From Desulfuromonas acetoxidans DSM 684 (lineage in GTDB: Bacteria; Desulfobacterota; Desulfuromonadia; Desulfuromonadales; Desulfuromonadaceae), in the NCBI RefSeq assembly GCF_000167355.1, contig NZ_AAEW02000003.1, positions 1 to 64,000 of the forward strand: a DNA stretch of 64,000 bases, in the 5' to 3' direction. The translations under genes were made by a program, and so were the position numbers. The notes below the pieces were generated by a model. The model saw only the letters and a list, made by a program, of their open reading frames with translations, made no database searches and was not told the DNA's origin. Below are positions 51,357 through 64,000 of the stretch, in pieces; within the stretch, counting starts at the first letter, position 1; every line of letters starts with the position of its first letter.

Positions 51357-51848
51357 TTGAAAAAAACTATTATTATTCTAGTGCTGACCCTGCTCACGAC
51401 ACCATCATTCTCTGCGGACTTCTATACCTGGCAAGACGAGAATGGAAAACTCCATGTTACAGACAAACCACCAGAGTGTCAGAACAAAGATGACGTACTT
51501 GTTAAGGAATACAGTTATTCAGACCACGAAAACAACCAGCCCTCTGAAACGTTTCAGCACCGGGTGTATAATCAGATCGACGCCGTAAATGACCATCGCT
51601 ATCAAGATGCAACCCAAGTTGATACGGTTCAACGAAAAAAAGAAAAACAACGCTTTGAAAAAACGATTGATGTTGAGAAGAAAATGCTCAAAGAACGTAT
51701 CCACTATTACAAATTCCGCTGTGCCGAGATCAACTCACCTGAAAACCGCAAAAACTATTGCGATGGACAACAAAAATTATACGAAAAGAAACTGGACCTT
51801 CTAAACCGCGATCCAGAAGAATATTTCATGCGAGAAACACGACATTAA
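51357..51848 (+). CDS. DUF4124-type secreted protein
   Basis: The 163-residue protein starts at TTG with GGAGAG upstream. It has a signal peptide (KKTIIILVLTLLTTPSFSA) followed at once by DFYTWQDENGKLHVTDKPPE, the DUF4124 pattern, and a long charged coiled-coil-like C-terminus. It should be exported to the periplasm; the function is unknown. It is the last gene before the tRNA-Leu fragment, on the host side of the junction. Confidence 0.75.
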   Translation: MKKTIIILVLTLLTTPSFSADFYTWQDENGKLHVTDKPPECQNKDDVLVKEYSYSDHENNQPSETFQHRVYNQIDAVNDHRYQDATQVDTVQRKKEKQRFEKTIDVEKKMLKERIHYYKFRCAEINSPENRKNYCDGQQKLYEKKLDLLNRDPEEYFMRETRH

Positions 51849-51886
51849 AACACGCTCTATTTTTGAATAACATCAGACAAAGAAAA

Positions 51887-51908
51887 AGCCCCTGACGAAT
51901 CAGAGGCT
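51887..51908. terminator. Terminator between the DUF4124 gene and the tRNA-Leu fragment
   Basis: AGCCCCTGA and TCAGAGGCT form a 9-bp stem (one mismatch) with a 4-base loop. A T-rich run follows on the plus strand, and A-rich on its left gives a U run on the minus strand. It can serve the DUF4124 gene and, originally, the tRNA. Confidence 0.6.
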
Positions 51909-51920
51909 ATTTCTTCTTTA

Positions 51921-51980
51921 TGGTACCCGGGACGAGAATCGAACTCGTACAGTCTTACGACCGAGGGATTTTAAGTCCCT
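51921..51980 (-). other. 3' fragment of tRNA-Leu(TAA): attachment site at the left end of the mobile element
   Basis: On the minus strand the fragment has the whole anticodon arm (AGGGA, loop CTTAAAA, TCCCT; anticodon TAA at 51973-51971), the long variable arm, the T arm with GTTCGATTC, the 3' acceptor strand and CCA (51923-51921). Past 51980 the sequence leaves tRNA: no acceptor 5' strand or D arm follows. So only the 3' 60 bases are present. This is the typical remnant left when an element integrates into the 3' half of a tRNA gene. The integrase gene starts 100 bases inside the element. The intact tRNA should be at the other end, outside the window. Confidence 0.85.
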
Positions 51981-52080
51981 ATTTTATCTACCGTTTTAAA
52001 GTTGCAACATACCGTTATTATGATATATATTATTATCAGAGCATCAACAAAGTCATTAACGGGGACAAAACGGGGACACC

Positions 52081-53067
52081 ATGGCAACATTCAACCAACG
52101 AAAAAGCGGTCGCTGGCAAGCGAAGATCAGACGAAACAATCAAGCCATCAGTAAAACATTTTCACGGCGTTCTGACGCTGAGGCTTGGGCAAGAAAAACA
52201 GAAGCAGAGATCGAGCGCGGTTTGTTCGTTCAGGACCTGGACGCCGCACAACGGATCACGATACGCGAGGCCGCCGATGCCCTGACTCTAGAGTACTTAC
52301 TACCTCGACTCAGTGATGGACACAGAGAAAAAAATCGCTTAGAAGCGCTCCTGGAACGTTCTGGATGGGAAAATAAGACACTAGCCCAGCTCCGAAGCAA
52401 AGACATCTACGACTACATGCGCAATCGAGAACAAGCAGGTGCCTCCGCAAACACTATACGTCTTGACTTAGCTCTCTTAAGCCGTCTTTACAAACACTCA
52501 ATCCAAAAATATGGCCTGGAGGGATTAGCGAACCCGGTTAAGGCCGTTGATCGGCCCTCAACGGCTTCGAGCGCACGAACAAGACGCCTTGAGGAAGGAG
52601 AGGAAGAAACGCTCTTGAAGTCTGCTCACGATGATTTCAAGCCCGCTATTGCCTTTGCATTGGAAACTGCCATGCGCCGCGAAGAAATTGCGACCCTTAC
52701 CTGGCAGAACATCAACCTCGAAAAGAGAACGGCCCACCTACCAAAAACTAAAAACGGATCAGCACGAACTGTCCCGCTTTCAACTGCCGCAATCGGGATA
52801 CTTAAAGCCCTTCCCCGCCAACTTGATGGCCAAGTTTTTGCGCTTACAAAAAAACGAATCACAGATCGAATGCGAACGACGGTAAAACGTGCAGGCTTAA
52901 AGGATTTGAGATTCCATGATTTACGACATGAAGCAACGTCACGCTTTTTCGAACGTGGGACCTTGGATATGATGGAAATCAGCAGAATAACAGGCCACAA
53001 GACCCTGTCAATGCTGTCCCGATATACGCACTTGCGAGCTGCAGATTTAGCCAAGAAACTGGGGTAA
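52081..53067 (+). CDS. int: Tyrosine recombinase (integrase)
   Basis: The 328-residue protein should integrate and excise the element at the tRNA-Leu site. It has an AP2-like N-terminal arm-binding part (WQAKIRRNNQAISKTFSRRSDAEAWA), a core-binding domain (about 60-155) and a catalytic domain with Arg199 (TAMRREEIATLTW), HDLRHEA (His279, Arg282), GHKTLS (His306) and nucleophile Tyr315. All catalytic residues are present. ATG at 52081 follows the direct-repeat-like GGGGACAAAACGGGGACACC, common before such integrases. It points away from the attachment site. Confidence 0.95.
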   Translation: MATFNQRKSGRWQAKIRRNNQAISKTFSRRSDAEAWARKTEAEIERGLFVQDLDAAQRITIREAADALTLEYLLPRLSDGHREKNRLEALLERSGWENKTLAQLRSKDIYDYMRNREQAGASANTIRLDLALLSRLYKHSIQKYGLEGLANPVKAVDRPSTASSARTRRLEEGEEETLLKSAHDDFKPAIAFALETAMRREEIATLTWQNINLEKRTAHLPKTKNGSARTVPLSTAAIGILKALPRQLDGQVFALTKKRITDRMRTTVKRAGLKDLRFHDLRHEATSRFFERGTLDMMEISRITGHKTLSMLSRYTHLRAADLAKKLG

Positions 53068-53137: not shown

Positions 53138-53701
53138 TTAGGAGATTTTTGAGACTATATAAATAATTACACCAACCAATACCCACAGAAACGATGCGTT
53201 CAAACCTAAACGCAATCGATGCATCTTTACGTCGCGGATGTAAATCAACTTCATGTGCTCAAAAGTCAATTCAGAAACAAGCCCATCCTCACAGTCGGGA
53301 TAATCTCCAGAAAAACTAACTACATCTTTTGACGCCTTCACCACACCACGATTCACAATTGCATCTAACAATCCAAACTCATAGAGGCCACCACCATAAA
53401 ACGAGCCATTATAACTTGATGAATTAACAATATGTCGTGATGGATTATCAATAGCCGATATAGACCGCACTAGAGTCAAAACAGCAAAAAGCCATAAAAA
53501 CAAAAAAGTTCCGCCAAAAATCAGCCCCCAACACAGACCAACAGACAGTGAAAAATGGCTCACATGGGCCCAAATCCTTCCCAAGGAAGAAATCGGCAAC
53601 AACATTGCTGCCAACAGTGCAGCAACCTTAAAATCAACCGCCCGTATTACAGCTTGAGTATCCCCAATGGCGGCAACAATAAAGTTTGTTTTACTATCCA
53701 T
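53138..53701 (-). CDS. Pycsar membrane effector (PycTM-like)
   Basis: The 187-residue protein has hydrophobic segments at about 24-42, 54-78 and 163-185. The N-terminal IRAVDFKVAALLAAM fits the A-D-x-K-x-x-x-L-L pattern of the PycTM/DUF5706 group. The C-terminal ELTFEHMKLIYIRDVKMHRL before the last helix also matches that group. Its start overlaps the end of the cyclase gene by 8 bases. By family knowledge such effectors bind the cyclic pyrimidine nucleotide and damage the membrane of the infected cell. The role is inferred from sequence pattern and from the cyclase neighbour. Confidence 0.75.
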   Translation of the reverse strand: MDSKTNFIVAAIGDTQAVIRAVDFKVAALLAAMLLPISSLGRIWAHVSHFSLSVGLCWGLIFGGTFLFLWLFAVLTLVRSISAIDNPSRHIVNSSSYNGSFYGGGLYEFGLLDAIVNRGVVKASKDVVSFSGDYPDCEDGLVSELTFEHMKLIYIRDVKMHRLRLGLNASFLWVLVGVIIYIVSKIS

Positions 53702-54419
53702 TATCCTTGACCCACTTATCCATAGTCTTATTGATTACGTTACCATGATAGCAATTACGGAATTCATTTTTCTCAAGAAGTCCTTTATTATGATTATTCA
53801 AATTCAAATAAAAGGCGTTCGACACCATAATTTCTTTATCTCCTGATGACTGATTCCCATAAGAACATAATTGCGCTGCCCGACCAACCAACTCACCAAG
53901 CCAAACAACTTCATTCACCCCTGTACCTTTATGTCCTGCCTTAATCAAAAATGACGATCCGTAATCTAAACCAACCCCTACACTAATTTCGCTATAATTC
54001 TTTTTCCTATATTTTATATTTAATATATCAACAAGAGATGACACCCTTGCAGCAACGCTAAAGAGATTATCTATATCTTTCTTCTTAGTAGTATTATATA
54101 TACCCCACACACAGTCCCCCTCAATGTAAACTTCACTCACCCCTGAATGATCCTTAAGTAAGGCAACAAGCTCAGAAATATAAGTTTTAAATATCTTTGC
54201 CAGCACAGGCCTTGTGTGTTTACCACTATTAAGTTCTTTCGAACCTCTCATATCTACAAACAACGCAGAACACTTAACATAATAACCATTATTAAATGTC
54301 AGCAACCCCCTTGAAGGGATCTCTTCCTTATCTTCATAAAGAGAGTCTGAGCTATTCAGTATTTCATCTATCCTTTCAATACTTCTTTGATAATCAAAAG
54401 AACGAAATCCTGCTTCCAT
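53694..54419 (-). CDS. Pycsar pyrimidine nucleotide cyclase (PycC-like)
   Basis: The 241-residue protein is a class III nucleotide cyclase. It has the first metal Asp56 in ALFVDMRGS, the second Asp102 in YIEGDCVWGIYNT, and the PycC-like blocks VGVGLDYGSSFLIKAGHKGTG and NEVVWLGELVGRAAQLC. The DMRGS, GDCVWG and VVWxGE motifs, no transmembrane or sensor domain, and a TM partner encoded with an 8-base overlap separate it from housekeeping adenylate cyclases. In Pycsar, phage infection triggers cCMP or cUMP production. Which base is made is not decided here. The gene is clearly AT-richer than the host. Confidence 0.85.
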   Translation of the reverse strand: MEAGFRSFDYQRSIERIDEILNSSDSLYEDKEEIPSRGLLTFNNGYYVKCSALFVDMRGSKELNSGKHTRPVLAKIFKTYISELVALLKDHSGVSEVYIEGDCVWGIYNTTKKKDIDNLFSVAARVSSLVDILNIKYRKKNYSEISVGVGLDYGSSFLIKAGHKGTGVNEVVWLGELVGRAAQLCSYGNQSSGDKEIMVSNAFYLNLNNHNKGLLEKNEFRNCYHGNVINKTMDKWVKDNG

Positions 54420-54919: not shown

Positions 54920-55993
54920 ATGATTAAGATCCCAAAAACATGTTCACTACAAAGCACCTTGAATGCTTTAGATGAAACCAGAGCAGCCCAAAGAGCAACC
55001 GATGCGATGGAGCTAACCAACTCCTATCGATTCATGATGGACGCACTAGCCCCCACCAGAAGCCTTCAAACAATAACCGACGCAATGGAGCTAACCAACT
55101 CCTATCGATCCATGCTGGACACACTAACACCCACTGGAAGCCTTCAAACAATAACCGACGCAATGGAGCTAACCAACTCCTATCGATCCATGCTGGACAC
55201 ACTAACACCCACTAGAAGCCTTCAAACAATAACCGACGCAATGGAGCTAACCAACTCCTATCGATCCACGCTGGACACACTAACACCCAAAGGAACCCTT
55301 CAAGCAATAACCGACGCAATAAGGGGCAACAATTATTATCAAGCCGCAACCAACTACCTCATTCAGGACATTGGCAAGTCAACGCTACACGACCTAAACG
55401 AAAGCATTACTTTAAAAAGTTCAATAGAAGGCATTCTAAAGAAAGACTATCTTGTTACCATAACGTCCTTCCTACAAGACAACAATTTACCATCATACGA
55501 AAACGTTTACCCTAGCTACACTAAACAAGAAATAGAAGATGTACTCAATGAAATATCGTCTTCTAAAAACATTGATTCACTAAACAACAAACTAAACAAT
55601 ACAAACACTAGAGCAGTAGCAATACTTCTTGCTTTATTAATACATTTCATAATCCCTCAAATAAATAATATATTTTATGATATAGCCAAAAACGTTTCAA
55701 ATGATATTAAATCAGAAAAGACAACTAAAAGGGATAAACTAAATGAAATAGATAGGGCAATATCTGCATCTGGAATAAGAACAGATACGCTAAGAATTGT
55801 AACTGTAAACAACTTAAGGTTAAGGGCATCTCCAAACAAAAATAGTTCAATAATAAACAAACTTCAGCTTGGACAACTTGTAATGGTAATCTCGAAAAAG
55901 AAAAACTGGATTGAGATTCAATATACTTGCAGTGATACTGAAATCTATCAGGGGTGGGTTTTTACGAGATACACGACACGATTAAAGAAATAA
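54920..55993 (+). CDS. Repeat protein with membrane segment and C-terminal SH3-like domain
   Basis: The 357-residue protein is of unknown function. Residues about 27-130 are four 26-residue repeats (consensus TDAMELTNSYRSMLDTLTPT then RSLQTI). Residues 140-230 are polar and helical. A hydrophobic segment follows (AVAILLALLIHFIIPQI, about 233-250), and the end (about 295-352) is a bacterial SH3-like domain (VNNLRLRASPNKNSSIINKL; GWVFTRYT). There is no signal peptide; the membrane segment implies membrane association. It is divergent from the Pycsar operon. The AT-rich composition matches the cargo, not the host. A hairpin at 55992-56014 (AACCTC/GAGGTT) follows. Confidence 0.75.
   Translation: MIKIPKTCSLQSTLNALDETRAAQRATDAMELTNSYRFMMDALAPTRSLQTITDAMELTNSYRSMLDTLTPTGSLQTITDAMELTNSYRSMLDTLTPTRSLQTITDAMELTNSYRSTLDTLTPKGTLQAITDAIRGNNYYQAATNYLIQDIGKSTLHDLNESITLKSSIEGILKKDYLVTITSFLQDNNLPSYENVYPSYTKQEIEDVLNEISSSKNIDSLNNKLNNTNTRAVAILLALLIHFIIPQINNIFYDIAKNVSNDIKSEKTTKRDKLNEIDRAISASGIRTDTLRIVTVNNLRLRASPNKNSSIINKLQLGQLVMVISKKKNWIEIQYTCSDTEIYQGWVFTRYTTRLKK
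54998..55309 (+). repeat. Four tandem 78-bp repeats inside the SH3 gene
   Basis: Units start at 54998, 55076, 55154 and 55232, each 78 bp with no gap, so the reading frame is kept. Units 2 and 3 differ at one base; units 1 and 4 are more diverged. A truncated fifth unit begins at 55310. Recent slippage or unequal crossing-over is likely. Confidence 0.95.
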
Positions 55994-56033: not shown

Positions 56034-56849
56034 TTACTTTGCTGTTGATTTTCGTTTCAAGTTTTGAAGGTCAAAGTCAGGGAAAAAATTCAATCCAGTC
56101 AATGCTTCTATGTGCCGGACCGATACCAGATAGTCCTCGGGATCTCCATGAGCCTTCTGGTGGTGAGGCAGTAAATAAGCCTCCCATTGAGGAGCTCCAT
56201 TTTCATCTTTCCATGCCACGATCTGGAAAAACAGTGGTGCAACATGAACATTGTCACCAACAACATCATAAGATCCTGGGCCAAAAATGGTTCCAACGAA
56301 AACCCAAAGTTCTCCATGTTCATTTAACAGGTCTTCCCGAATTCTTGTTTCCAGTTCGTACCAAACTCCTCCTGAGCCGTTGAAAGCATTATGGTGCTGT
56401 GGGGTCAAGTTTGTCTGGTAATTGATCTGATAAACAGTTTCTTTGTCATCAGTATCCTCTTCAGCCAACTTGCCGTCACCGTCTCTGTCACCACCAGATA
56501 TGAAATATGGTGCCAAATGTCCGTGAGCGTAATTCCTTATCTCGTCCTGGAAGACTCCCGAATAATCATTATCACTGGGTTCTTCGGTTAGGTCAGGATC
56601 GTTTCTGTATGTTGCCCACTTTCCGGTTCTCTTGGGAACATCTCTGTAACCGGGAACGAGATGGTAAGCCAGCCAGCGAGGTGCTTTATGTACGGTGTCA
56701 TATTCGACCACGTAAGCATTTCTTTCCAGCACAGTCCCATTAGAGGGAAGCCCTCCTAAAACATGCTCCTCTGTCAGTGGTCCGGCTTGGGCGAATGTAG
56801 CGAAAGATAAAATGAATATGCTTAAAAAGAACATTGATGATTTTGACAT
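56034..56849 (-). CDS. Exported DNA/RNA non-specific endonuclease (EndoG/NUC family)
   Basis: The 271-residue protein has a signal peptide (MSKSSMFFLSIFILSFATFAQA) and a beta-beta-alpha metal nuclease domain. The DRGH motif is reduced to YAHGHLAP, keeping the general-base His. The metal-binding Asn is seen in NLTPQHHNAFNGSGGVWYELE. The chosen ATG follows GGAAGGG; a start at 56870 has less support. It should act in the periplasm or outside the cell. In a transfer element it could degrade incoming DNA or help exchange; this is a guess. It is convergent with the SH3 gene. Confidence 0.85.
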   Translation of the reverse strand: MSKSSMFFLSIFILSFATFAQAGPLTEEHVLGGLPSNGTVLERNAYVVEYDTVHKAPRWLAYHLVPGYRDVPKRTGKWATYRNDPDLTEEPSDNDYSGVFQDEIRNYAHGHLAPYFISGGDRDGDGKLAEEDTDDKETVYQINYQTNLTPQHHNAFNGSGGVWYELETRIREDLLNEHGELWVFVGTIFGPGSYDVVGDNVHVAPLFFQIVAWKDENGAPQWEAYLLPHHQKAHGDPEDYLVSVRHIEALTGLNFFPDFDLQNLKRKSTAK

Positions 56850-57057
56850 GGCACCCTTCCTACGTGGCATAAGTCACCACTCGACCCTAGTGTTTTTTCG
56901 GGCTTAGATGGATCGTTGCTGGCCTGATCCAAGAAGTTACTCTAGAGCCGAGAATATGGCGTCCTGCCTCTCTTATTGCCCCTCACAATACAAAACTAGC
57001 GGCGGAGGGCATAACAGGACACGCAGACAATCGAATCTCACTTGGTTGATTAAAATC

Positions 57058-57873
57058 TCAAATTCCGAATAAACTTTTCGCTCCTGAAACCATACGTACA
57101 AATGGCTTCATGATTGGATTTTCTTTCGGCGGCGGGGGCAGTTCTTTTTTAATCCATACTTTCGGGGCTCTTTCAGAATCTAGCTTAACAGTGTAACCTA
57201 CATTGGAGGTAATATTCACCCAAGCGACCGTTTCTACTTTTATGTATTTCCCGTTCTTCTTGATCGCTCCCTCAGCTGTAATACGGTACAGGCCAAAAGG
57301 AATCTTTTTTTCAGGAATTACGGTCGTAAAATATGAGTCCCAGTTTTTACTTACAAGGGTAATACCAACAACCTTGTCAGGTTCCCCCATATACGTGATC
57401 GTTCCTTTTGTTTTCGTTTTGTTTTGAGGAATGAGCATACGATCATACAATTCGATCGTTAAAGGAACGTCCAGATAAACCTTTTTCCCGTACTTGTCAC
57501 TTAATACGTCTGGGATATCGATGTTATAGTTTGGCCGAGCAACAGCCACCAAAGGGTAATTTCGGTACTTTTCCAGAAAGCTATCTAATTCCTGAGGCAA
57601 AGCCCTTTCTTGAGCCAGTTTTTTTACGGCTGCGACCTCTTTTGCGTATTTCTCACGTTTTGGGGCCATGCTGTCTTCATAAGAAGAGTAGATAAACCCC
57701 ATGTAGGCAAAAGCTATTAACAGCAAAAAGCTTCGGCCTTTCCAAGTACGCAATAATGCCATCCCTAAAAAGACCGTGATTTTTATAATTCCAGCTCCAG
57801 CAATAACACCAGCAGCAGTTAGACCGGCCCCCGTAACTCCTGCACCACTTGGGAGGTTATCTTTACTAGACAT
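57058..57873 (-). CDS. Unknown membrane-anchored protein in transfer region
   Basis: The 271-residue protein has a Gly/Ala-rich N-terminus, two hydrophobic segments (about 17-38 and 48-62) and a large extracytoplasmic region (about 70-271) rich in beta pattern, ending in a Pro-rich stretch and a short tail. The start at 57873 has AAAGGATA upstream; the frame extends to 57945 without support. I do not recognise a family. It is downstream of the DotA-like gene on the same strand, so a transfer apparatus part is plausible. About 190 bases with no feature separate it from the nuclease gene. Confidence 0.6.
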   Translation of the reverse strand: MSSKDNLPSGAGVTGAGLTAAGVIAGAGIIKITVFLGMALLRTWKGRSFLLLIAFAYMGFIYSSYEDSMAPKREKYAKEVAAVKKLAQERALPQELDSFLEKYRNYPLVAVARPNYNIDIPDVLSDKYGKKVYLDVPLTIELYDRMLIPQNKTKTKGTITYMGEPDKVVGITLVSKNWDSYFTTVIPEKKIPFGLYRITAEGAIKKNGKYIKVETVAWVNITSNVGYTVKLDSERAPKVWIKKELPPPPKENPIMKPFVRMVSGAKSLFGI

Positions 57874-58081
57874 GCGATATCCTTTCAAAAAATACTGCCC
57901 ACGCTCTATAACAATAACGAGCGGGAGCGTATAACATGGGAACAATAGAATTCAATGACTTTAATATTAAAGGCCTTAAGCTCTTTCTTAATCCAGATGA
58001 CAACAGATGGCATCAAAATGTGGACATGGAGCGAACTGTCAATATTTTATGGAAAGGTGATGTTGGCCTTTTCAGATACCA

Positions 58082-60988: not shown

Positions 60989-62797
60989 TTATCTTGGTTT
61001 GAAGACGTTTGACTCATTATCCTGCTGCTGGCGGCGTTTTTGCTCCAAACACAGGCGTTGGACTTCAGCTTGCATCCTCGCCAACTGGGAAGCTTCGGCT
61101 TGGTCCTTAATTTCTGGGACTTGCGACAGTCTTTTCTCTGCCTGATGGAGATCACCGGAGTTAGGCAGCGTCTTCAATTTTTGGAAGGCGTCAGCCCTTT
61201 CGCTCCTGTTTTCCTGAATCAGCTGGGCGGCTCGGCCTTTCAAGTCGGTGTGACTGTTTTTCAGCTCTGCGCCGTGCTCTCGCAGCAAGATTTTCACTTT
61301 GCTGTCGATCAGCTCGACCCGTTCAGCCAGTTTCTGTAGTTCCTTGCGGTCGCCTCCGGCGAGGGTTTTGGAGGCAAAGGACCTGTCCTGGTATTGCCCA
61401 AGTTTGGTTTTGTACTGATCAACAACCTGTTTAGCCTCTTTTTTCAGTTCTAGATATTCGCGCTCAATCCGCTTAATTTCTGGATTTCGTTCCTTGTTCG
61501 CCATCTTCAAAGCGTCTTTTTCGGCGAGCTCCGGCTGCTGCAACCAGGTGCTCAGCTGATCACGTTCTTCTATCCCGGCTTTGATCCGCTCGATCTCTTT
61601 CCGAAGCTCGGCAATCAACGGCTTATCGCCCAAGGCTTGCTCGATGGCTTCTCGTTCCTGGTCGGTTAGATCGCATTTGATAGAGTCGGCCGGAATTCCC
61701 AGCAGGCGGGCTTGCCTGAACATTTCGGTATGGAAATCTTTATCTCCGCCGCTGACATCGAATTTCGTCCAACCTTTTTGCAAACCGAGTTGCAAGGCTG
61801 CTTTGCAATTGGCTTCCGAGCTACTGCTGACGGTGATCATGTTCTTATATCCATGATCCAACAAGGCAATCGCCTGCGAGTTCTGCCAGCGGAATTCCCC
61901 GGTCGTTTCGTTTTTAACCATGTAGTCGAGAGCTTGTTTATAGCGCTTCGGTTGAGTCGCTTTCGGCGGCTTCGCAGAAATGTCTTTTTCGATCTGAGCA
62001 AGCAGCTTTTCTGCCTGCTGCAGCTGAGCAATGCGCTGATTTATTTTTTCGATTTCTTTGTTCAACTGCCCTCTCTCCGTTTCTTTGCCTTGCCTCTCCA
62101 TGTTCGTCGCCGTTGGCCCTTCGTGCATGGTCGCCACTCGATCAATTCCCTGCGCTACTAACGTTCGCCGGTCAATACGAATATCTAAACCTTCGCGCTC
62201 CAATTCAGCATTGCAGACTCGCTCCCAGGTGTCGCGCATCCACTCGGCGGGGTCTTCATATTTGCTTCCTCCTGGTTTGCGTTTCTTGCAGGCGATGGGG
62301 TCAAGCTCGACAACCTTGTTGCCGAGACTTCCATCCTTTAAAATCTCACAAGCACTGTAGAGGATGTGCGAGTGATGGTTGCGGGGATCGCCGTATTCTT
62401 TTTGTCGCATGTCGTTTGTCGGCCGATGCCTGGCTAAATCGGTCGCAACGTTGTACTTTTCGCGGATCGCCTTCGCCATATTTCGGGCAGCGCGGTTTTT
62501 TCCCTTGTCGCTTAGCTGGTGAGGGATTGCGATTTCACATTCCCGGCTCGTCACGGCGTTGTCTTTTGTAAAATTCACTTCAACTGAATTCCAAAAATCC
62601 TGCCTGCTGATTTCCTGCCCACCGGGCAGGGTGAGTTCGGCGAACTCAATTCCTTTTTTTCTCCGGTAGTCGTAGGTTTCACCGGTTCGGTGATCTTCGA
62701 TTTTCTCCCCGGCCCGATAGGCCGCTTTTCCGCAGGAACTGGGGCCTTTGGACCGATTGAAAGCCTTCAAGCTGCAGTGAAAAAACCCTTTTTCCAT
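60989..62797 (-). CDS. MobA/MobL-family (MobQ) relaxase with LPD7-like domain
   Basis: The 602-residue protein should nick oriT and lead the DNA strand to a recipient. Its N-terminal relaxase domain has FFHCSLKAFNRSKG, catalytic Tyr27 in SCGKAAYRAG, and the metal-binding HHSHIL (His141, His142, His144). A middle coiled coil (about 230-280) leads to an LPD7-like block (about 300-390: RWQNSQAIALLDHGYKN, KGWTKFDVSGGDKDF). The rest is a long helical, charged tail. ATG at 62797 has AAAGGA upstream. oriT lies just upstream of it. Confidence 0.9.
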   Translation of the reverse strand: MEKGFFHCSLKAFNRSKGPSSCGKAAYRAGEKIEDHRTGETYDYRRKKGIEFAELTLPGGQEISRQDFWNSVEVNFTKDNAVTSRECEIAIPHQLSDKGKNRAARNMAKAIREKYNVATDLARHRPTNDMRQKEYGDPRNHHSHILYSACEILKDGSLGNKVVELDPIACKKRKPGGSKYEDPAEWMRDTWERVCNAELEREGLDIRIDRRTLVAQGIDRVATMHEGPTATNMERQGKETERGQLNKEIEKINQRIAQLQQAEKLLAQIEKDISAKPPKATQPKRYKQALDYMVKNETTGEFRWQNSQAIALLDHGYKNMITVSSSSEANCKAALQLGLQKGWTKFDVSGGDKDFHTEMFRQARLLGIPADSIKCDLTDQEREAIEQALGDKPLIAELRKEIERIKAGIEERDQLSTWLQQPELAEKDALKMANKERNPEIKRIEREYLELKKEAKQVVDQYKTKLGQYQDRSFASKTLAGGDRKELQKLAERVELIDSKVKILLREHGAELKNSHTDLKGRAAQLIQENRSERADAFQKLKTLPNSGDLHQAEKRLSQVPEIKDQAEASQLARMQAEVQRLCLEQKRRQQQDNESNVFKPR

Positions 62798-62839
62798 TAC
62801 TGACAAATCCTTTGATTTGGCTTTTGGTTTTCGGCGCAG

Positions 62840-63212: not shown

Positions 63213-63520
63213 AGCCCCACCTCGTCATGCTCTTTTTCGATTTCGTCGATTTCATTTTGATCAGCTTTGAAAATTCGGATTCTTACCTTACCGAACAACA
63301 AGGCAAAACTTGGCGCTGACCAAAAAAATAGCCATCCAAACCACCAATAAGTAGGCTGGACCTCTTGCCAGTTGTACCTCGCGGCGCTGCAAGCATCTAG
63401 AAGCGGTTGCAGAGCGTGTTTTGCAGCCAGATCACCCGCAACCGCTGCTGAGATCATGGCTGCGAGTAAGAAAGCGAAAATCACCCCTGTGGCTGCTCCT
63501 TTTAGATCAATGCAAATCAT
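63209..63520 (-). CDS. Small membrane protein of transfer region
   Basis: The 103-residue protein has two hydrophobic segments (about 10-28 and 58-76) joined by an extracytoplasmic loop (about 29-57) and a charged cytoplasmic tail. No family recognised. It overlaps its neighbours by 4 and 14 bases, so is part of the same operon. Confidence 0.55.
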   Translation of the reverse strand: MICIDLKGAATGVIFAFLLAAMISAAVAGDLAAKHALQPLLDACSAARYNWQEVQPTYWWFGWLFFWSAPSFALLFGKVRIRIFKADQNEIDEIEKEHDEVGL

Positions 63521-64000
63521 TGTTTTCTCCTGCTATCTGTTTCATTATTTTTCTTATCTGACTTCTACCTTTTTTTAATTCTGAGTCTGTTATCCCTTTA
63601 TTTTGCAACTCGGGTTGTTTTCGAGTCGCAGACTCTAATAATTTCTTTTTTTCACTTTCACGCCACCTATATAGCTGCTTTCTGTCTATCGCTGATAAAT
63701 CCCCCTGGCTGGCCAGGCGGCGTTTTATTTTTGCCTGAAAAGCATCAGGATCATCGTTCACGCTGCTATATTTTTTGTGCTTAACTGCCAAACGGACGTA
63801 ATCATCTATTTCCAGCTTCGCAGCATGATTATCGTGCACCTTGGCATCCCCTTTTCTTATCATTTTCCTAGATTTTTTCTGATCAAGATAATCCCGATAA
63901 ATATCTAACAGTTTCGAGGTGTTAAGTTGATAACCATTACTTGTTCTGCCACCGTCTTGACGATAGCGAGGCTCAGTAGTCAGCCAGTTTTCTCTTCTCA
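63507..64000 (-). CDS. Partial helix-turn-helix-like protein (5' end beyond the window)
   Basis: The frame is open to the right edge. Before the first internal ATG (63863) it reads WLTTEPRYRQDGGRTSNGYQL then LNTSKLLDIYRDYLDQKK, so the true start is beyond 64000. The R-x-x-D-G-x-x-T-S-N-x-Y-x-L pattern is typical of helix-turn-helix proteins of plasmids and phages, including replication initiators. The C-terminal part is charged and helical. A role in replication or regulation is likely but not certain. Confidence 0.6.
   Translation of the reverse strand, partial: RRENWLTTEPRYRQDGGRTSNGYQLNTSKLLDIYRDYLDQKKSRKMIRKGDAKVHDNHAAKLEIDDYVRLAVKHKKYSSVNDDPDAFQAKIKRRLASQGDLSAIDRKQLYRWRESEKKKLLESATRKQPELQNKGITDSELKKGRSQIRKIMKQIAGENNDLH

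Follow-up and report, generated by a model that had tools for sequence, protein, structure and literature searches.

Introduction

The phage HP1 inserts in a tRNA-Leu gene, and insertion into a tRNA gene with a tRNA fragment left behind is a well-known kind of event. In the islands catalogued by Islander, as described in the available part of that work, an intact tRNA gene and a 3' fragment lie on the same strand with the integrase gene between them, and the block that they share runs from the anticodon stem on; 2083 of the 3919 islands in its Table 1 are anticodon-centred (PMC4383910). A survey of tRNA–integrase pairs sorts them into "shapes" by relative orientation and, in the sections at hand, predicts that an integrase whose promoter overlaps the att region regulates its own gene, as for intS of KplE1 (PMC2951348).

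Some mobilizable elements are also of interest here because of a single transfer component. SGI1-type integrative and mobilizable elements (IMEs) bring one inner-membrane component of the mating channel of their own: according to the available part of PMC11493245, SGI1 brings a distant VirB6 homologue and evades the entry exclusion of its helper by means of its own TraG, while the IncI protein ExcA targets TraY. The 19-kb mobilizable plasmid pXCV19 (NC_007505.1) carries a MobQ relaxase and a DotA/TraY protein, with no other annotated transfer gene and no annotated integrase in the 11.8 kb viewed (the other 7.4 kb lie outside that stretch).

Here we describe an island in a genome of 3.82 Mb in 51 contigs. 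The window, that is, the whole stretch of DNA analysed, comprises the first 64,000 nucleotides (C3:1-64000) of contig NZ_AAEW02000003.1, abbreviated C3. We are confident that the best explanation of the locus as a whole is that 51920-51980 is the displaced 3' half of a tRNA-Leu(TAA) gene, forming the left attachment site (attL) of a 13.3-kb integrative and mobilizable element (Table 1). The island shares with those of Islander the intact tRNA, the same-strand 3' fragment, the integrase between them and the shared block from the anticodon stem on, and nothing in it is excluded by the Islander definition; however, its integrase adjoins the fragment and not the intact tRNA (PMC4383910, available part). 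The pairs treated in the corresponding sections of PMC2951348 likewise have complete tRNA genes adjoining the integrase, whereas here an opposite-strand fragment does so; a point in common with the scheme of that survey is that the integrase reads away from the att core. As for HP1, its integrase structure (1aih) ranks sixth among solved-structure profile matches of the island integrase (E 3.8e-10; best match 5c6k, 1.9e-17), so that five other chains match better, and the two elements differ in type and cargo.

Table 1. Features of the island and its flanks (positions of the window, or of contig C3 where so marked).
Feature	Position	Strand	Evidence or remark
DUF4124 gene, chromosomal flank outside the island	51357..51848	+	in G008, a protein of 91% identity lies left of another island
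Chromosomal terminator hairpin, originally 3' of the tRNA	51887..51908	-	9-bp stem, T tail; fold; relatives
att core at the left junction (attL): displaced tRNA-Leu(TAA) 3' half, positions 28-87 plus one base	51920..51980	-	perfect 61-bp repeat of C3:65214-65274
Candidate arm-site doublet, directly before the integrase start codon	52058..52080	+	AACGGGGAC twice at 11 bp
Tyrosine integrase, 328 aa	52081..53067	+	PF00589 1e-25
PycTM-like membrane effector, Pycsar-type pair	53138..53701	-	PADLOC PycTM 6.4e-12
PycC-like cyclase, Pycsar-type pair	53694..54419	-	PADLOC PycC 7.9e-93
ORF, 119 aa	54459..54818	-	no family match
ORF, 357 aa	54920..55993	+	78-bp tandem repeats and C-terminal SH3_3 domain
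DNA/RNA non-specific endonuclease	56034..56870	-	PF01223 3.7e-28
ORF, 295 aa, next after the DotA/TraY gene	57058..57945	-	no clear family; one PHROG at 0.0075
Orphan DotA/TraY family protein, 758 aa	58082..60358	-	TIGR04346 7.5e-173
ORF, 139 aa	60566..60985	-	no family match
MobA/MobL relaxase with LPD7 domain, 605 aa, MobQ-like	60989..62806	-	PF03389 1.5e-40; NCBIfam MobQ 4.2e-43, below curated cut-off
Small ORF, 92 aa	62934..63212	-	Pfam matches below cut-off only
Small ORF, 103 aa	63209..63520	-	no match in Pfam or PADLOC
O-like replication initiator	63507..64000, continuing to C3:64190	-	PHROGs match
AlpA-like candidate excisionase	C3:64193-64420		PHROGs excisionase match
25-bp tandem array	C3:64789-65001 (= L003:14789-15001)		8.7 copies of CCTGTCTCCCAGGACAGGGGGGGGG, 73.7% G+C
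Far candidate arm-site repeats	from C3:65044		CGGGGAC at C3:65044 and C3:65091, near the far core
Island terminator hairpin, right after CCA of the intact tRNA	within C3:65150-65214		fold -22.6 kcal/mol, z -6.9

The attachment core and the intact tRNA

The 60 bases at 51921-51980 correspond on the minus strand to positions 28-87 of tRNA-Leu(TAA), from the 5' side of the anticodon stem to CCA, in agreement with the original observation of a 3' fragment of this tRNA, and ARAGORN finds no complete tRNA in the 64-kb window. Together with one base past CCA they form an exact 61-bp repeat: compared in register with C3:65214-65274, identity is perfect over 61 bp and ends there, and the only other match of the fragment in the genome at E 0.001 is C3:65208-65274. 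This second copy is part of an intact tRNA-Leu(TAA) gene (C3:65215-65301), which shares the strand of the fragment and lies 1.2 kb past the end of the window. The intact gene and direct repeat that had been predicted for the far end, to be sought past position 64000, are therefore both present, 13.3 kb downstream. A perfect 61-bp repeat is not a product of chance.

The repeat unit measures 13,294 bp, of which 12,020 bp lie inside the window and 1,213 bp beyond it (one core not counted). The integrase start codon at 52081 is 100 bp from the core, exactly as first noted. It had also been suggested that a nearby GGTAGA (TCTACC on the plus strand, 51987-51992) might extend the core, and this we reject: relative to the D arm of the intact tRNA the match is shifted by 2 bp, and the other five tRNA-Leu(TAA) islands (L074, L070, L071, L072 and L073) lack it at the corresponding position. 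The core stops at 51980. The shared block thus starts at the anticodon stem-loop, as in the anticodon-centred class of att sites, and the island has the arrangement for which Islander filters, namely an intact tRNA and an end fragment in the same orientation on one replicon, the 3' fragment downstream of the tRNA, the integrase gene inside, and a length between 2 and 200 kb.

The unsplit site in relatives

A probe made of the joined flanks runs unbroken across the junction in G007, G001, G006, G003 and G013, five of the 30 mqnA loci fetched. An unsplit site in relatives, which is a mark of site-specific insertion and not an Islander filter, is thus found in five genomes, and with the far-end repeat it bears out the claim that the fragment is the attachment core at the left junction of the island. 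The left flank that the unsplit relatives share is only about 40-60 bp long and is the terminator side. The mqnA gene is present in 35 of the 40 genomes searched (the focal one counted), and a tRNA-Leu(TAA) call adjoins it at 28 of the 30 loci retrieved; therefore, the site is old and conserved. Further left, the flank is matched in two genomes that hold islands: in G008, the stretch with the DUF4124 gene aligns over 629 bp at 89% nucleotide match, and in G002 a gene beyond it aligns over 962 bp at 80%. No unsplit site was found together with the DUF4124 gene, whose orthologues in G001, G002 and G007 are located elsewhere.

On either side of the exchange, a hairpin follows immediately after CCA. 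The chromosomal one folds at -20.5 kcal/mol (51875-51920, z -4.2), and in relatives the sequence of 51876-51917 comes directly after the intact tRNA. That of the island is placed by its fold, because a scan of C3:64900-65400 gave no terminator-like site; nor did the scan give promoter-like sites. The G+C content is 45.4% in the island, 49.6% in the left flank and 46.4% in the right flank.

Gene content of the island

Directly behind the integrase gene lies what profile matches identify as a Pycsar-type defence pair: a PycC cyclase gene stands beside a Pyc effector gene, with frames that overlap by 8 bp, and neither protein has a match in Pfam or NCBIfam. The DotA/TraY protein scores 576.6 bits against a curated cut-off of 100 (NCBIfam TIGR04346). 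The relaxase, in turn, reaches 147.4 bits against the curated MobQ cut-off of 200 (NCBIfam NF041496) and 139.8 against 26.7 for PF03389 (MobA/MobL), and it is therefore filed as MobA/MobL and named MobQ-like only. Integrase and relaxase occur together without a complete mating apparatus of the element's own, DotA/TraY being the sole such component among the ORFs scanned, which is the composition of an IME. No capsid, terminase or tail family was matched among the ORFs scanned (10 of 14 ORFs in PHROGs, 14 of 14 in Pfam). Given this content, the best reading is an integrative and mobilizable element that carries defence cargo, both ends of which are pinned to the base by the tRNA fragment.

Two repeat arrays were also observed. 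The 78-bp tandem repeats span 54997-55320, inside the reading frame of the SH3-domain protein, and the 25-bp array, which lies near the replication initiator and candidate excisionase genes, perhaps represents iterons or oriT.

The TIGR04346 match is the only one in this genome, and relatives of DotA occur in only four of 147 genomes searched, the focal one counted. The orphan protein pairs with the MobQ-like relaxase, and no other type IVB transfer gene was matched in the island. A search of this genome for DotI/IcmL (PF11393) gave no match, and neither did it in any control genome, so that this negative carries no weight. A plasmid of Desulfosarcina ovata has DotA/TraY together with genes of the DotD, DotH and DotI families. 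A similar pairing is found on pXCV19, which combines a MobQ relaxase with DotA/TraY as the island does, but which is a plasmid with no integrase annotated in the 11.8 kb viewed.

Islands at the same tRNA in other genomes

At tRNA-Leu(TAA), islands with an integrase of this group occur in six genomes: the focal one, G008, G002, G018, G016 (in which the integrase is broken) and G096. In all six, the 3' half lies beside the integrase and the intact tRNA is 3.2 to 17 kb off, and the cargo differs between them. Shared cargo as proof of one common island was considered and discarded: among 13 relative loci compared at E 1e-3, only the integrase and two genes of the flanks, DUF4124 and mqnA, match, with DotA in addition in G045. 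The G045 island, which occupies tRNA-Leu(CAA), carries a MobF relaxase, a TraD-like protein, a DNA methylase and DotA/TraY; the 160-aa ORF that precedes its DotA shows no similarity to the 139-aa ORF of the focal island. The G096 island has RepA, a relaxase, TrbL/VirB6 and KfrA, and L074 and L092 (G096), an island of about 17 kb, look like an integrated plasmid.

PADLOC, applied to 10 proteins of the relatives, found a PDC-M54A candidate in G008, a TIR protein in G018 and a SoFic protein in G016, and no match in four of four G002 proteins or in two of three from G008. Another defence candidate is thus seen in three of the four other islands scanned at this tRNA (G096 was outside the PADLOC scan). 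Defence cargo as a rule for tRNA-Leu(TAA) is not general, given the four G002 proteins with no PADLOC match.

Polarity of the tRNA across the integrase family

We compared 94 loci, consisting of the best 80 of 576 confirmed relatives of the integrase, 13 loci from further relatives and the focal one. In the common polarity, the tRNA found upstream of the integrase lies on its strand, in most cases whole and at a distance of about 100 bp; in the opposite polarity, a tRNA 3' half lies on the opposite strand. Hand labels on the 92 rows of the tree gave 64 same-strand, 23 opposite and five of neither kind, and the focal island is of the rarer, opposite polarity. Left out of the tree were L073, with its broken integrase (by eye of opposite polarity), and L193, which has a short frame. 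The same-strand rows include five with a same-strand 3' half only (L127, L141, L156, L165 and L174) and count one record twice (L078 and L120), and the opposite rows include two intact opposite tRNAs (L144 and L162) as well as L137 and L155, which were counted as opposite halves by eye against a whole-tRNA call by ARAGORN. The loci are partly non-independent: besides that duplicated record, L070 and L071 have near-identical integrases, and so do five Pseudomonas loci.

On this tree, a quick one computed without bootstrap, polarity must change 11 times, with at least four changes forced by well-supported branches; shuffled labels require about 20 changes, and none of 500 shuffles was as low as 11. 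The focal clade, five rows of opposite polarity, joins a six-row clade at SH-aLRT 95, and this sister clade contains three common-polarity insertions in tRNA-Leu(TAA) (L115, L117 and L118). Polarity has therefore switched while the tRNA target was kept or regained. Fourteen of 19 opposite-strand halves start at tRNA position 28-32. Of the 87 labelled loci, 21 have an opposite-strand half, and not an intact tRNA, next to the integrase, so that such islands would escape surveys based on integrases with an adjacent complete tRNA gene.

In L144, an 82-bp repeat with a whole tRNA-Arg(CCT) is found at both ends, and the element seems to carry an entire tRNA. L127, L141, L156 and L165 have a same-strand 3' half with no 5' half beside the integrase; by eye, arm-like repeats also lie on the opposite side of the half (the same motif in L141), and these may be unintegrated att sites.

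Candidate integrase arm sites

An exact 7-mer repeated at 11 bp within 100 bp upstream of the integrase start was found in 56 of 84 loci, compared with 7 of 1387 control windows taken from those loci (the 84 are 93 loci less nine short or near-identical ones); the other 28 have no exact 11-bp doublet. Among other spacings from 8 to 20 bp, the highest counts were five of 84 at 20 bp (0.55 expected) and three of 84 at 9 bp, and in L070 and L071 the best doublet is spaced at 12 bp, not 11 bp. When all 94 loci are counted, 16 of the 23 opposite ones have the doublet, as do 47 of the 64 of common polarity; it is seen in none of the seven unlabelled loci, one of which, L073, was measured from a misplaced start and does have a doublet before its true start.

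The far end was found for only 11 of the 94 loci, and in these both ends are present; L073 also has both ends, yet it stands outside the counts of doublets among the 84 loci, of their recurrence at the far end and of the tree. In 10 of the 11 islands, the motif beside the integrase is found again no more than 180 bp from the far core, compared with two hits on the same strand and four on the other in the eleven island interiors taken together. L166 has no exact far-end repeat of its doublet. The motif changes from island to island: it is GGGGACA in the focal one, GGATGCA in L072, TGTGACA in L076, CGTTCAC in L144, CATCACA in L170 and CGGTACA in L174, and none of these six occurs at a foreign far end save for one TGTGACA hit in L071. 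The GGGACA-type motifs of L074, L070, L071 and L075 match one another's far ends and therefore do not count as independent matches. Repeats with 11-bp spacing at both ends are, from their sequence and placement, probably the arm sites of the integrase, and they suggest a simple test for such sites, namely whether a doublet with 11-bp spacing next to the integrase is seen again at the far end.

Alternative explanations

That the fragment is a decayed tRNA duplicate unconnected to any island has a negligible probability. Partial tRNA copies do also arise as CRISPR-Cas spacers, as described in the available part of PMC9897764, but here an intact tRNA lies 13.3 kb off on the same strand with an integrase between, relatives have unsplit sites, and the same layout is found in five other genomes; a lone tRNA pseudogene is ruled out by the far-end repeat, the intact tRNA and the unsplit site. 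Very unlikely, too, is a phage satellite or prophage remnant in place of a mobilizable element: the relaxase and the DotA/TraY protein lie in the island and the structural phage families mentioned above find no match among the ORFs scanned, which outweighs the PHROGs matches of the O-like initiator and the excisionase and the likeness of the integrase to phage integrases. An integrative and mobilizable element could nevertheless have become a stranded remnant, now incapable of excision or movement. The lack of a complete mating apparatus among the island ORFs would fit this, and the broken integrase of the G016 island at the same tRNA shows that decay happens; however, the integrase and relaxase genes both retain open reading frames, there is an AlpA-like gene, and all 61 bp of the two cores still agree, so that we consider stranding unlikely.

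A different doubt concerns the two polarities, which might in part be an artefact of labelling if some fragments stem from older neighbouring insertions and are not the integrase's own site. The labels were set by hand, two of them (L137 and L155) against ARAGORN, and among the 23 opposite rows, 17 yielded no far end. Nevertheless, both ends are present in six opposite islands (L003, L074, L070, L071 and L072, and L144 with its whole tRNA duplicated) and in five of common polarity, and the opposite-strand halves begin at position 28-32 in the proportion given above. We therefore regard such an artefact as quite improbable.

Discussion

In the integration of this mobilizable element, the tyrosine integrase would most likely place its crossover inside the 7-base anticodon loop, and the anticodon stem would supply the inverted half-sites of the core. 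The attP site would carry a replacement tRNA 3' half with its own terminator, so that integration would restore a whole tRNA gene at attR, the right end, and the old 3' half with the old terminator would be pushed to the left end, beside the integrase gene. GGGGACA-type direct repeats inside both ends would probably serve as arm sites. Because the left doublet abuts its start codon, the integrase may also repress its own gene; by the reasoning in the available sections of PMC2951348, autoregulation would be expected where, as here, the integrase reads away from the att core and the doublet abuts the start. Excision would perhaps be aided by the AlpA-like factor; transfer of the resulting circle would then involve nicking by the relaxase and a type IV secretion system supplied by a helper.

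In such a transfer, the DotA/TraY protein of the island may replace the copy of the helper. Like SGI1-type IMEs, the island brings one inner-membrane component of the mating channel of its own, but the component here is DotA/TraY. Since ExcA of IncI targets TraY and SGI1 brings its own TraG (PMC11493245, available part), the TraY of the island may serve to dodge exclusion, which by this analogy is a hypothesis only. The orphan DotA/TraY protein with a MobQ-like relaxase suggests a swap of a helper-channel component similar to that of SGI1, in another type of secretion system.

Differing orientations of tRNA and integrase are, as such, already in print, and PMC2951348 counts pairs of differing relative orientation; the available sections of that survey contain nothing that we noticed on polarity switches inside a single integrase family or on agreement of arm motifs between the two ends, and a narrow literature search returned no title on either subject. 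Our results lead us to favor, with moderate confidence, the view that the anticodon stem-loop serves this integrase family as a core of no fixed polarity. The tRNA 3' half and its terminator would then be a cassette that can lie on either side of the integrase gene, while the layout of the arm sites relative to the integrase stays constant; the arm heptamer would change fast between elements and yet be the same at both ends of each. If this is true, because the heptamer is kept equal at both ends, the ends of such islands and the arm-binding DNA specificity of their integrases would be readable from sequence.
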